Origin: Allokutzneria sp. NRRL B-24872
GTDB lineage: Bacteria; Actinomycetota; Actinomycetes; Mycobacteriales; Pseudonocardiaceae
Direction of reading: 5' to 3'
Assembly: GCF_002155965.1 (NCBI RefSeq)
Contig: NZ_MUMH01000131.1
Location: 1-39,930, forward strand
DNA length: 39,930 nt
Below the pieces are notes generated by a model that worked only from the letters and a program-made list of their open reading frames with translations, was not told where the DNA came from and made no database searches. This document shows, in pieces, positions 5,093-10,098 of this stretch (its first letter is position 1; each line of letters starts with the position of its first letter). A program made the translations under genes and the position numbers.

Positions 5093-6277
5093 ATGACGCG
5101 AGCCCTCGCGTTCTGGACCCTTGCGGCGACCCTGTTCACCTTCATGGCCGCCGCCGCGGCTCCGTCGCCGCTTTACGTTGTGTACCAAGCACAGTGGGGA
5201 TTCACCGGGACGACGCTGACCGTCGTGTTCGGCGTGTACGCGCTGGCGCTGCTGGCCGCGCTGGTGACGGTCGGCGCGGTGTCGGACCACGTCGGCAGGC
5301 GCCCCGTCCTGCTCGCCTCGCTCGCCGTCCAGCTCGTCGCGCTCATCGTGTTCGTCAGCGCGGACGGCGTCGGCTGGCTGCTCCTCGCGCGCGTGCTCCA
5401 GGGTCTGGCGACCGGTGCCGCGACGGGAGCGATCACCGCCGGGCTGGTCGACGTGCAGCCAACGCGGCGGCCCGGGCTCGCGTCGCTGGTCACCAGCGCC
5501 GTGCCCGGCCTGGGCCTCGGTCTCGGCGCGCTCGGGTCCGGGTTGCTCGTGGAACACGCACCCGCGCCGACGACGCTGGTGTTCGTGCCGCTCATCGCGG
5601 TGACGGTGCTCATGACGGCGGGCATCGCGCTCGTGCCGGAGACCTCGACGCGGCGTCCAGGAGCGCTCGCGTCGCTCCGCCCTCGGCTGGCGGTGCCGGT
5701 CGCCGGGCGCGCGACGTTCTTCGGCACCGTTCCGATCTTCGCCGCGACGTGGGGCGTCGCCGGGCTCTACCTGTCGCTCGGGCCGTCGCTCGTCGCGGAG
5801 GTCCTGCACCTGCGCGACCACCTCGTGAGCGGTGCCGTGGTGTGCACGCTGATGATCGGCGCCGCGGTCGGCTCAGTGCTGGCGCGCGGCCGGGAGCCCC
5901 GGTCGGCGATGATCACCGGCGCGCTCGGGCTCGCGCTGGGCCTGGCGCTGACCCTCGTGGGGCTGCACTCCGGCTCACTCGGAACTCTGTTCCTCGGCAG
6001 CGCGGTATCGGGCCTCGGGTTCGGGTTCTCCTTCCTCGGCGCGTTCGCGACAGCGGCGGCACTCGCCGCCCCGGAGCACCGCGCCGCCCTTTTCGCAACC
6101 ATCTACACGGTGAACTACCTTGCCTTCAGCCTGCCCGCGATCGCCGCCGGCGCGGCGGCGACCTCGTTCGGCCTGGCCGCGACCGCGGACGTGTACGGCG
6201 TCGTCGTCATCGTGATTTCCCTGGCAGCGGCCGCTTTCCTGACCAGGAGACAGCCAGCGCCCGTCCACTGTGGATGA
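5093..6277 (+). CDS. MFS transporter, probable drug or metabolite exporter
   Basis: A 394-residue protein with about 12 hydrophobic segments, the normal size of a major facilitator. The conserved loop 2-3 motif is present as GAVSDHVGRRPVLLASL (consensus GxLaDrxGrRxxl), and LLLARVLQGLATGAATG matches the fourth-helix region. It should act as a proton-driven antiporter in the cytoplasmic membrane. AAGGAGG lies 6 nt before the ATG at 5093. The divergent TetR gene suggests substrate-inducible export. The substrate cannot be told from the sequence. Confidence 0.9.
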   Translation: MTRALAFWTLAATLFTFMAAAAAPSPLYVVYQAQWGFTGTTLTVVFGVYALALLAALVTVGAVSDHVGRRPVLLASLAVQLVALIVFVSADGVGWLLLARVLQGLATGAATGAITAGLVDVQPTRRPGLASLVTSAVPGLGLGLGALGSGLLVEHAPAPTTLVFVPLIAVTVLMTAGIALVPETSTRRPGALASLRPRLAVPVAGRATFFGTVPIFAATWGVAGLYLSLGPSLVAEVLHLRDHLVSGAVVCTLMIGAAVGSVLARGREPRSAMITGALGLALGLALTLVGLHSGSLGTLFLGSAVSGLGFGFSFLGAFATAAALAAPEHRAALFATIYTVNYLAFSLPAIAAGAAATSFGLAATADVYGVVVIVISLAAAAFLTRRQPAPVHCG

Positions 6278-7223: not shown

Positions 7224-8237
7224 TCACGATTCCACGCAGATGCGGAGTTTGCGCGGCGCGTGCAGGACGCCGCGCGAGGGAACGGGAGCCCTGTGGGGCA
7301 CAAGCCGATGTGACTGGAGCACCGTGCTGAGGATGACGGTCAGCTCGGTCAGCGCGAGCTGCGAACCGGGGCAGAAACGTGGTCCGAGCGCGAACGGGAA
7401 GTAACTCCCGGAGGCTGGACGAGCACCCGAAAGCCAACGCTGCGGCCGAAACTCGTCCGGCTCGGCGAACGCGCTCGGGTCGCGCTGGTTGAGGTAGGGG
7501 CTGAACAACAACGTCGCGCCCGCCGGGTAGTCGCCGACCGGCTCGGCGAGCTGCCGGGGCAGTTGCCAGACCGGCGGATGCAGGCGCAGCACCTCGCGCA
7601 CAACCGCTTCGCAGAACCGCGATTCCGCACGCGCCCGCTCTTGGACGTCTGGGCGGGTCGACACCTCGTGGAAGCACCACGCGAGCGCCGCGCCCGGAAC
7701 GTTGTGGCTGGACAACAACATCGTGCGCACGGCCAGCGTGATCGTGCGCTCGTCGAAGCCGTGTTCCCTGAGATGAGCGGGAAATCCCGTGCCGCTGACG
7801 CGGACGTGCTGCCGAATCGCTTCGAAGGTCGCGCGCTGCGCCCGCCTTCGCCGCGACCTGAGTTCTTTGTCCACCAGGGAGGAGAGCCCCGGCGCCGCTT
7901 CACCGAGCACGTGGCGGACATTGATCGCCGACACCAGCCGAACAGCCTCGCCCATCGCGTCGACCACGCCACTGTTGATCTTCTCGACCGGCTCGACGGT
8001 CTCGACCGTCGCTGACAGCAGCGGTCGCAGTGCCCGGCGGACCGCCATCCACGTCGCCAGCCCGTCCGACCCCCACGACGTCACCTCCGTGCGCAGATCG
8101 CCGCGCGGAGCCAGCGCCGCCTTGCTCGCGAGAAGCCGTTCCGTGGCAAGTGGATCGGTCACCAGCCAGACCCCGGGCTCGACCTCCGCACCCGACCGTG
8201 CGGCGGCCGCGGACAGGGCCGCCGCACGCGGGTTCAT
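7224..8237 (-). CDS. Short cytochrome P450, likely RiPP-modifying
   Basis: A 337-residue heme monooxygenase, shorter than the usual 390-420 because the N-terminal region before helix C is reduced. The heme loop FALGPRFCPG (axial cysteine C289), the K-helix ExxR (EVLR, 215-218) and the helix-C type WMAVRR (63-68) are all present. The I-helix reads LLSSHNVPGAALAW (174-187) instead of the usual acid/threonine motif AGxET, so the standard proton-relay pair is missing. The ATG at 8237 shares its A with the TGA stop of a 24-codon gene directly upstream, so translation is probably coupled. P450s paired with tiny precursor genes cross-link aromatic residues in ribosomal peptides (biarylitides, cittilins, tryptorubin-type atropopeptides are established cases). 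That assignment is inferred from context; the P450 assignment itself is firm. Confidence 0.9.
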   Translation of the reverse strand: MNPRAAALSAAAARSGAEVEPGVWLVTDPLATERLLASKAALAPRGDLRTEVTSWGSDGLATWMAVRRALRPLLSATVETVEPVEKINSGVVDAMGEAVRLVSAINVRHVLGEAAPGLSSLVDKELRSRRRRAQRATFEAIRQHVRVSGTGFPAHLREHGFDERTITLAVRTMLLSSHNVPGAALAWCFHEVSTRPDVQERARAESRFCEAVVREVLRLHPPVWQLPRQLAEPVGDYPAGATLLFSPYLNQRDPSAFAEPDEFRPQRWLSGARPASGSYFPFALGPRFCPGSQLALTELTVILSTVLQSHRLVPHRAPVPSRGVLHAPRKLRICVES

Positions 8238-8311
8238 CACACAGCCGGATAGGCGTAGTAGCCCGGCGACGCGAACCGGCGACGGCGGACGAGGCGCTTG
8301 AGGAGTTTCAT
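8237..8311 (-). CDS. Candidate RiPP precursor peptide (24 aa) with YYAY core
   Basis: A 24-codon frame, too short for normal gene calling. The N-terminal half is MKLLKRLVRRRR, a strongly basic leader; the C-terminal half is FASPGYYAYPAV, with Tyr18, Tyr19 and Tyr21 close to the end. AAGGAG lies 7 nt before the ATG, one of the better ribosome binding sites in the window, and a TTGACA promoter stands 36 nt further upstream of the start. The stop overlaps the P450 ATG by one base. Three aromatic residues within four positions at the C-terminus, next to a P450, resemble the precursors of cittilins (YIYY core) and biarylitides (YxH-type core). The core sequence itself matches no product I know. 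An alternative is a mere coupling leader for the P450, which would not explain the aromatic tail. Confidence 0.7.
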   Translation of the reverse strand: MKLLKRLVRRRRFASPGYYAYPAV

Positions 8312-8346
8312 GGCGGTCTCCTTCGTGCTCGGGGAAATCACCACGG

Positions 8347-8375
8347 AATATCGGGCGGCGGAGCACGGGTGTCAA
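8347..8375 (-). promoter_or_regulatory. Promoter of the precursor/P450 unit
   Basis: On the minus strand a consensus -35 TTGACA (8375-8370) is followed after exactly 17 bp by GATATT (8352-8347), a 4 of 6 match to TATAAT. Transcription would begin about 30 nt before the precursor start codon, leaving room for the AAGGAG site. Confidence 0.6.
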
Positions 8376-8880
8376 GGAACCGTTGCCGCGGAAGGGGAAG
8401 TCAATCGACTGGAAGCTGGTTGGAGTTGGCGGGACTCCGCATCTTTTGCGGGGGCGTGTCCTGGTTGTGTCTCGACGCTGTCGTTGTCGTGATGCTGGGC
8501 ATCCTTGGTCGGGGACGGCTGGGCTTCCAGCTGGTGTCGGTATCTGCGGCGGGTGCGGTTGGTCTTGGGGGCGCGGGGGTTGCTGCGTGGGGTCGGCTTG
8601 ACCTGGGGACCCCTTGCGCGTGCCGAAAAGGGCCGGGCGGCACGGTGATGAAACACCGGCCCCCGCGCGAGCGTATGGCACGCGCACCCCAGGTAAAGCC
8701 GACGGTTTGTTGCGCGGCTTACGTTTCGCGGGGGTTGCGTTCTCGGCGTGGCGGACGCCTGGGCGTGTGAGGTCGACGAAGTCGACGAACCCCTTGTCAC
8801 GCAACGTGTTCACCCTATGGGGAGAGGATGTCGATCTTCGCATTTGGGACAATGGAAGGAGGGAGAAGAGGGGGAGAAAG
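8376..8880. other. Gene-free stretch upstream of the DUF222/HNH gene
   Basis: About 500 bp between the divergent P450-unit promoter and the DUF222 gene. Frames are open in several phases, but their translations are rich in Pro, Arg and Ser without family features, and no ribosome binding site supports a gene. CTGGAAGC (8409-8416) and GCTTCCAG (8523-8530) form an 8-bp inverted repeat, probably by chance. The part from about 8780 on is purine-rich and less GC-rich than the surroundings, like the 5' part of the DUF222 gene. Confidence 0.4.
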
Positions 8881-10098
8881 TTGTTTGATACCAAGGGTTT
8901 GATCGCATCGTTGCAGGCTCATCTTCGTGAGCGGGATGCCTACAAGTTGACCGGTGATGGGTTGTTGGATTGTCTGCGTGAGCACGAGAAGCTCATCAAC
9001 ATTGTGACCGCTTCGGCGATCGAGGTCGCGGCCGAAGCGGAAGCGCAGGGTGTGCCCGCACGTCAGGGTTGTAAGGACCTGGCAGTCTTGTTGCGCACCA
9101 CTTTGAAGATCGCGCCGGAGGACGCGGCTCGGCGTAGTCAGTTGGTGCAACGGTTGCCGGGGTTGGACAGAACCCGGAAGAAGCTGCACGCGGGGAAGAT
9201 CAGCGTGCGGCATGCGCAGATCATCGCCAACACCGTCGAGAAAGTCCCTGCCGACAAGGCGAAGAAGGTCGAGAAGGTTCTCTGCCGTCACGCACCCCGG
9301 TTGAATCCTCGACAGTTGATGTACGCGGCGAAGGTCGCGCGGGCCACGATCGATCCGGAGGGCACGTATCGGGACGAGAAGGAGGGGGTGGCGCAGCGGT
9401 CGGTGAAGATGGGCACCAACGAACACGGCCACCTGCACCTCATCGGCAGCTTCGACACCCTGACCGGGCAGAAGATCCAAGCCCTGCTGCACGCCCTGGC
9501 CAAGAAACGCGCCGGAGACGACCGCACGACCGAGCAGCGGTACGCGGATGCCTTCGCGGAAGTGGTCGACCTTGCCCTCACGGCGAAAGCGTTGCCAACG
9601 CATGGCGGGGCACGGCCGCAGGTGATCGTCACGATCTCCTACGCCGACCTGATGGCCAGCCTCGGCACCGGCTTCACCGCCTGGGGCGACCCGATCAGTG
9701 CCGGACTCGCCCGACAGATCGCCTGCGACGCCAACATCCTGCCCGTCCTCCTAGGAAGCGAAGGCAGACCACTCGATGTCGGACGAAGCAACCGCACCGC
9801 GACACCGGCCATGCGCAAGGGATTGGCGGTGCGGGACAAGGGGTGTGCGTTCCCGGGGTGTGATCGGCCCCCGGCGTGGACGGAAGCTCATCACGTCGTG
9901 CACTGGCTTCACGGCGGGGAGACGAAGATCGACAACCTGGTTCTGCTCTGCTCGCACCATCATCACGTGATGCACGACGAGGGCTGGGAGATCGTCTTCC
10001 AAGACGGGCTGCCGACGTTCATTCCGCCGAGGTGGGTGGACCCGGATCAGAACCCGATGCGCAACATCAGGGTCGACGACCAGCTCGCACGCTGCTGA
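8881..10098 (+). CDS. DUF222 / HNH endonuclease-domain protein (13E12 repeat family)
   Basis: 405 residues from the TTG at 8881, chosen because a long purine run with GGAG precedes it; an in-frame GTG at 8806 is the alternative. The N-terminal two thirds is the helical DUF222 domain (LREHEKLINIVTASAIEVAAEAE, then KISVRHAQIIANTVEKVP). The C-terminal HNH nuclease domain reads CAFPGCDRPPAWTEAHHVVHW, then GGETKIDNLVLLCSHHHHVMH, with zinc-binding cysteines and catalytic histidines in place. These proteins occur in many copies in actinobacteria; their cellular role is not established. The 5' half uses more TTG, GAT, GGT and CGT than the 3' half and the neighbours, which suggests recent arrival or recombination between copies. 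Confidence 0.85.
   Translation: MFDTKGLIASLQAHLRERDAYKLTGDGLLDCLREHEKLINIVTASAIEVAAEAEAQGVPARQGCKDLAVLLRTTLKIAPEDAARRSQLVQRLPGLDRTRKKLHAGKISVRHAQIIANTVEKVPADKAKKVEKVLCRHAPRLNPRQLMYAAKVARATIDPEGTYRDEKEGVAQRSVKMGTNEHGHLHLIGSFDTLTGQKIQALLHALAKKRAGDDRTTEQRYADAFAEVVDLALTAKALPTHGGARPQVIVTISYADLMASLGTGFTAWGDPISAGLARQIACDANILPVLLGSEGRPLDVGRSNRTATPAMRKGLAVRDKGCAFPGCDRPPAWTEAHHVVHWLHGGETKIDNLVLLCSHHHHVMHDEGWEIVFQDGLPTFIPPRWVDPDQNPMRNIRVDDQLARC

Follow-up and report, generated by a model that had tools for sequence, protein, structure and literature searches.

A tiny tyrosine-rich peptide gene conserved beside a cytochrome P450 in Pseudonocardiaceae, a candidate two-gene family of P450-modified RiPPs

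The window, that is, the whole stretch of 39,930 nucleotides of Allokutzneria sp. NRRL B-24872 that was analysed, carries on its minus strand a very short open reading frame followed by the gene of a cytochrome P450 (Table 1). The 24-codon frame and the translation proposed for it in the original prediction were confirmed, together with the overlap of a single base between the two genes, the TGA at 8239-8237 sharing a base with the P450 ATG at 8237-8235. The promoter-like element TTGACA-17-GATATT is found exactly as it had been described; the AAGGAG motif is present too, but its spacer is 6 nt instead of 7. A longer in-frame start is available at GTG 8344 and would give 35 aa, but the start common to the homologs is that of the 24-aa frame. 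Compared with the NCBIfam models, the peptide has zero matches. Moreover, the pattern TTGAC-N17/18-NANNNT occurs in all 11 homologous upstream regions, its first base lying 56 to 64 nt ahead of the start codon of the peptide, and single-base shuffling of these stretches yields it in 0.25% of cases; the pattern was defined post hoc from the sequences, and the 11 loci are related.

Table 1. Features of the peptide-P450 locus and of its flanks in the window
Feature	Position	Strand	Remarks
Cytochrome P450, 337 aa	8237-7224 (protein to 7227, then stop)	minus	Pfam p450, 8.2e-31
Putative precursor peptide gene	8311-8237	minus	ATG...TGA, 24 aa and stop; translation MKLLKRLVRRRRFASPGYYAYPAV
Ribosome-binding site AAGGAG	8318-8323	minus	6 nt ahead of the ATG
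Promoter-like TTGACA-17-GATATT	8347-8375	minus	TTGACA 8375-8370, GATATT 8352-8347
Putative basic leader, residues 1-12	8276-8311	minus	Hydrophobic/basic pattern retained; residues 2-8 pN/pS 0.64
Arg block R9-R12	8276-8287	minus	pN/pS 0.09; R10 and R12 invariant in ten rows
Putative core GYYAYPAV, residues 17-24	8240-8263	minus	pN/pS 0.24; G17, Y18, Y19, Y21, P22 and V24 invariant in ten rows
MFS transporter	5093-6274	opposite to the unit	Assigned by Pfam; outside the widely shared set
DUF222-HNH endonuclease-like gene	8614-10098	plus	Upstream of the promoter of the unit; outside the widely shared set

Within the same family, 297 genomes were searched with the P450; ten had a match at E <= 1e-35, the genome of the window included, and the P450s of these ten genomes are 54-79% identical in the alignment. 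When the DNA upstream of them was read, a frame of 21-24 codons of the same make was found directly upstream in ten out of ten. An eleventh locus, that of Saccharothrix luteola (L022), encodes the peptide MKLLRMILRRRRPATTGYYAYPPV with the tail GYYAYPPV, bringing the pairing to 11 of 11 close homologs. This locus comes from a scan of the genome contigs of 84,980 species, based on two short peptide patterns, in which 80 loci were kept, 7 of them close (E <= 4e-88) and 73 more distant. The close loci belong to Goodfellowiella (n=1), Saccharothrix (n=4) and Actinokineospora (n=2), all Pseudonocardiaceae; six were already among the ten genomes and the seventh is L022. The scan is not exhaustive, as at least three members known from the search of the 297 genomes were missed by it. 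Searches of 298 genomes from the order and 345 from the class gave no new members and returned 4 and 2 known ones, respectively. On plasmids, 21 records match the P450, and none of the best 20 of these 21 covers more than 47% of it. So far, the family is known from Pseudonocardiaceae only.

A profile of the peptide was run over the same 297 genomes. It was built from the ten peptides, which are therefore recovered by construction (the window peptide, itself a row of the profile, at E 7.4e-15), and the actual result is the absence of others: the worst true match stands at 4.4e-9 and the next best at 0.0064, and in no genome among the 297 was the peptide found without the P450. Both peptide and P450 are missing from G068, the third genome of the genus to which the window belongs. 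As the frame is present beside all 11 close P450 homologs and the profile finds no genome that carries it without this P450, a chance open reading frame is ruled out, also by the gap in the profile and by the constraint on codons reported below. In other words, a gene so short, which would be hard to credit from one sequence, becomes credible because it is tied to the enzyme in all close relatives found. The check that had been proposed, namely to collect homologs of the P450 and look for the same small frame with a conserved aromatic tail, gave the expected outcome on both points, with a frame of 21-24 codons directly upstream at every locus and the tail residues G, Y, Y, Y, P and V invariant in the ten aligned peptides. 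Homologs of the P450 devoid of the frame or of its aromatic residues, which would have spoken against the proposal, were not encountered among the 11.

Selection along the peptide was estimated from 55 pairs of the 11 genes, pairs that are not independent of each other. The pN/pS ratio is 0.56 over residues 2-24 and is unevenly distributed, being 0.64 for residues 2-8, 0.09 for the Arg block (9-12), 1.38 for the linker (13-16) and 0.24 for GYYAYPAV; synonymous change is also low in the core, with a pS of 0.20 vs 0.37 in the whole gene. Across the ten aligned peptides, M1, R10, R12, G17, Y18, Y19, Y21, P22 and V24 are invariant, and the tail conforms to GYY[AS]YP[APS]V. The expectation of a varying leader holds for the four residues ahead of GYY, which drift, but not for the Arg block, the most constrained part of the gene. 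Likewise, the core YYAY that had been singled out is constrained, yet the constraint extends on to the C-terminal P-x-V. Such a pattern, two blocks under constraint with a linker drifting between them, is to be expected of a recognition element and a core.

To assess the size of the unit, frames of at least 50 aa were compared over the 11 loci. The comparison covered about 10 kb on each side or, for the window, 7 kb on one flank and the entire remainder on the other. Apart from the P450 and frames overlapping it, no frame is matched at three or more of the other loci. As no other gene is common to at least four of the 11 loci, the unit, judged by gene content, is one of two genes; a larger gene cluster is unsupported, there being no third widely shared frame. 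The absence of a protease and of a transporter from the unit, already noted in the original prediction, extends to redox partners, none of the three being among the frames widely shared by the 11 loci. The neighbors named by Pfam in the window (17 frames) include LysR, TerC and aldo/keto reductase genes, none of which is widely shared.

The spacing between the two genes varies. The overlap of one base is found in the window and in the sister genome G034, and at the other nine loci the nearest likely P450 start is placed differently, overlapping by 4 bases at one and lying up to 118 nt downstream at the rest. At these loci (L010-L017 and L022) a GC-rich hairpin directly follows the peptide stop in 9/9 folded stretches; it is better than shuffled sequences in six (z -2.3 to -4.6) and not in three (z -0.3, -1.6 and -1.8). 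The window and G034 have no spacer and no such hairpin. A hairpin located after a precursor gene often lets the precursor exceed the enzyme.

Regarding the enzyme, the heme-binding Cys, the ExxR motif and the C-helix WxxxR are invariant across the aligned homologs. An AlphaFold model obtained from the ten-row alignment (mean pLDDT 76.8) has a P450 fold, and the first three matches of a fold search are CYP175A1-type Thermus structures. The N-terminus of the family is short: according to which start is assumed, about 24-40 residues precede the LVTDP stretch. The PPGP hinge is absent from the family; it is present in the more distant L032. The I-helix reads SSHNVPG in the window (P0002 residues 176-182) in place of the usual AGx(E/D)T. 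In the 11 proteins the corresponding pattern is [SA][SG]H[HN]VP, with N in the window only: the acid and the alcohol are gone, and a Pro follows.

In the C-D region and ahead of RRRRAQ, the window P450 lacks, in frame, residues that each of the nine aligned homologs has. The shortenings, approximately at residues 75-92 and 126-128, lie beside a local GGTCGAG-like repeat. They represent either a lineage-specific loss of loops or an assembly fault and, because of them, the window copy could be impaired; a pN/pS of 0.26 between this P450 and that of G034 runs counter to impairment. Among NCBIfam models the best match of the P450 is ApyO (NF050147), with 89 bits against a curated cut-off of 525. 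As 11 other P450 places in the same genome outscore the window P450 on this model, which is therefore not specific, ApyO was rejected as the nearest family. The genome has 23 matches in the P450 search, and 40 places in it are matched by one P450 model.

We consider it probable that the locus encodes a two-gene P450-modified RiPP, in which the P450 couples tyrosines of the core and a protease of the host cuts the leader. The peptide is very probably the substrate of the P450, by association, since the frame accompanies the enzyme in every close relative found. Specifically, the tiny gene would give rise to a precursor in which a short basic leader precedes the C-terminal core GYYAYPAV. The Arg block R9-R12 would act as the element recognized by the enzyme, a role that is probable by analogy: for ApyO, an Arg upstream of the Y-x-Y core is described as required for the reaction (PMC13192836). 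The distal pocket of the P450 would receive the tail of the precursor, and the enzyme would oxidatively couple Tyr side chains in Y18-Y19-A20-Y21; we infer that Tyr18, Tyr19 and Tyr21 are the sites of modification to be expected. The most likely link would be Y19-Y21, a three-residue Y-x-Y ring, with or without a second one via Y18. The rings described for P450Blt (Y-x-H; PMC10929621) and ApyO (Y-x-Y; PMC13192836) have the same spacing as Y19-A20-Y21. The redox partners would be supplied from elsewhere in the cell, as would the protease that trims the leader and, perhaps, P-A-V at the other end; for tryptorubin, two genes and a protease outside the cluster are described (PMC11450843).

The main chemical alternative to cross-linking is nitration. 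RufO and P450Blt are described as sharing one pentapeptide substrate, which is nitrated by the first and cross-linked by the second (PMC12186263); therefore, the reaction is not settled by sequence. That the P450 of the window nitrates or hydroxylates a Tyr, as RufO does on MRYLH, and that the peptide is a carrier of a modified amino acid destined for use elsewhere, is in our judgment improbable. As the unit has no widely shared neighbor at the 11 loci, no NO synthase, amidase or NRPS accompanies it. In addition, three Tyr and the flanking G, P and V are all invariant in the ten rows, which exceeds what one nitration site needs, and the replacement of the acid and alcohol of the I-helix by H or N and V would disfavor an ordinary hydroxylation.

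Still less probable is a regulatory role of the frame, as a leader peptide functionless as a product, in which ribosomes pausing at Tyr or Arg codons would control a hairpin that attenuates the P450 gene. A Tyr-rich tail followed by GC-rich hairpins in nine relatives is consistent with attenuation (six at z <= -2.3, three no better than shuffles), but the window and G034, which have no spacer, share identical last 12 residues of the peptide. Furthermore, the non-Tyr residues G17, P22 and V24 are invariant although their codons vary, and the tails associated with other P450 groups in the clade contain Trp and His. There is only a slight chance that MKLLKRLVRRRR, short, basic and apparently amphipathic, is a free-standing cationic peptide with a membrane-active or signalling role and linked to the P450 for another reason, as at the thresholds used neither the peptide nor the P450 occurs alone in any of the 297 genomes and the same layout recurs beside other P450s with unrelated tails.

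With the known P450-modified RiPPs the family shares a short precursor gene beside a P450, conserved together at 11/11 loci, and conserved aromatics near the C-terminus of the precursor, Y18, Y19 and Y21 being the same in all ten rows. Atropopeptides (tryptorubin type, group 1/2 'cyptides') are described as having a similar two-gene unit and a leader followed by a C-terminal aromatic core, and are defined by a KSLK-type motif (KSLK, RSLK, ESLK, KSRK, KPLK, PSLK) and by a Trp at core position 2 (PMC11450843). In contrast, none of the 11 precursors has a KSLK-type leader motif and none contains Trp at that position or elsewhere, the core here being all-Tyr and followed by P-x-V. A DNA pattern for the tryptorubin core was found in none of 296 genomes. 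The core of cittilin is Y-I-Y-Y and, going by its description, cittilin differs from the present family, with its Y-Y-A-Y, in this as well as in its leader. The likeness lies in the Tyr-Tyr biaryl and aryl-ether links described for cittilin and CitB (PMC11450843).

Biarylitides (P450Blt and BytO, with RufO as a nitrating paralog) resemble the family in the minimal peptide gene joined to a P450 and in the Y-x-aromatic motif. According to the descriptions, the Arg of their MRYXH directly precedes the first Tyr (PMC10929621), and their precursors consist of five residues, the search criterion being a length of 5-8 aa and aromatics at positions 3 and 5 (PMC13417212); here, precursors are 21-24 aa long and have a separate basic leader. 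No entry named P450Blt appears in the best 60 of 236 PDB profile matches or among the 50 fold matches listed, some entries being titled simply 'Cytochrome P450'. The aminopyruvatide enzyme ApyO, acting on a YLY motif, is alike in the Y-x-Y core and upstream Arg (PMC13192836), but the apy cluster as described includes an MNIO and other modifying enzymes, with a precursor ending in YLYD, while only two genes are found here. Other P450-RiPPs came from genome mining, namely kitasatide, micitide, strecintide, gristide, roseovertin, rubrin and lapparbin (PMC12299652), and 11 categories are attributed to Liu 2024 in the same source. Among the matches listed for open-licence PMC papers, nothing relevant turned up for a YYAYP or YYAY tail, and YGAYG in combination with RiPP led to unrelated titles only. 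As the definitions of atropopeptides and biarylitides do not apply and the ApyO model is unspecific, the best placement of the locus is in a new family of the known P450-RiPP ('cyptide') kind, the comparison with cittilin, kitasatide, micitide and the categories of Liu 2024 being by description only.

A further possibility, which we put forward tentatively and consider rather doubtful, is that of a separate P450 RiPP class, with a near-invariant mono- or bicyclic Tyr-cross-linked YYAYPxV product, a short, hingeless P450 free of the acid and alcohol, and Pro-x-Val as a built-in follower. If so, a product kept across several genera would point to a conserved function, such as a signal, a metal or redox ligand or an enzyme inhibitor, and not to a diversifying weapon. 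In any case, a Tyr-only, two-gene family would be added to the macrocyclic peptides made by P450s, and its near-fixed core, unlike that of a diversifying natural product, raises the question of the benefit to its maker.

The more distant set of the 84,980-species scan (73 loci, L025-L097) places the family in a wider context. Thirty-eight of these 73 P450s have a Pro one residue past the position of the conserved Thr of the I-helix; among the 38, 25 retain the Thr itself, chiefly those of a Streptomyces group, and 13 have lost it. The 38 leave out L056 and L094, whose Pro pattern lies elsewhere and whose aligned I-helices are AGHETT and AGHHTS. The other 35 mostly read AGHET, two having no aligned I-helix and one being an odd archaeal protein. 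Upstream peptides were counted by a strict rule (14-45 codons, a ribosome-binding site, at least two Tyr/Trp in the last 16 residues and at least three Lys/Arg), drafted after an initial look at twelve of the loci. Under this rule a basic-aromatic frame is found upstream of 34/38 Pro-bearing P450s vs 0/35 of the others; a match of L033 is a different frame and was left out of the count. In the remaining four (L025, L031, L033 and L061) the frames resemble the peptides of their relatives. A relaxed rule, without the ribosome-binding site, finds frames also in 12/35 of the other loci, and the strict rule alone was therefore used for counts. Six further P450 places of the window genome, five readable and one a fragment, gave a peptide frame in 0/5.

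In most cases the I-helix Pro is accompanied by a small peptide gene upstream of the P450, L004 being an exception. This P450 of the window genome (AGVETP) has the Pro and no peptide, so that the Pro alone is no predictor of a peptide; as a sign of Thr loss it does not hold for the Streptomyces group, Thr being kept in 25/38, and L004 is again a counter-example. It is the clade, and not the Pro, that bears the argument. In a tree of 40 hand-chosen P450 rows (11 of the GYYAYP family, 15 peptide-associated and 14 others including L004), the peptide-associated P450s split from the others at 97/96 and the GYYAYP family forms one clade at 100/100 on a long stem; the tree is midpoint-rooted and carries a long-branch warning, and it supports the grouping, not the order. 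Basic-aromatic peptide genes upstream of P450s throughout this clade offer a way of picking likely RiPP P450s in actinomycete genomes.

As many of the 38 are near-copies, mostly from one Streptomyces group, they perhaps represent some six or seven independent peptide types. Group-specific tails are RPYPTWT, ARAYLYYTCDQWPPVN, HYGAYGEHDW, RYIYWPYH(TR) and GYYWG, with RYVWYH in a genome of the same family as the window. Basic-aromatic peptides linked to P450s were observed in Nonomuraea and Microtetraspora (L026, L028), Nocardia (L029, L031, L033), Streptomycetaceae (L025, L032), Nocardioides (L034) and, in the same family as the window, at L135. In Streptomyces and Kitasatospora, at L030, L036, L040 and many of L042-L083, a P450 with ATFE[TA]P is joined to a peptide of the type MIAKLLGKLSFTRHYGAYG(E/A)H(D/E)W..., a widespread pairing that possibly constitutes another P450 RiPP family. 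Some of the MIAKLLGKLSFTRHYGAYG-type peptides have an acidic C-terminal extension.
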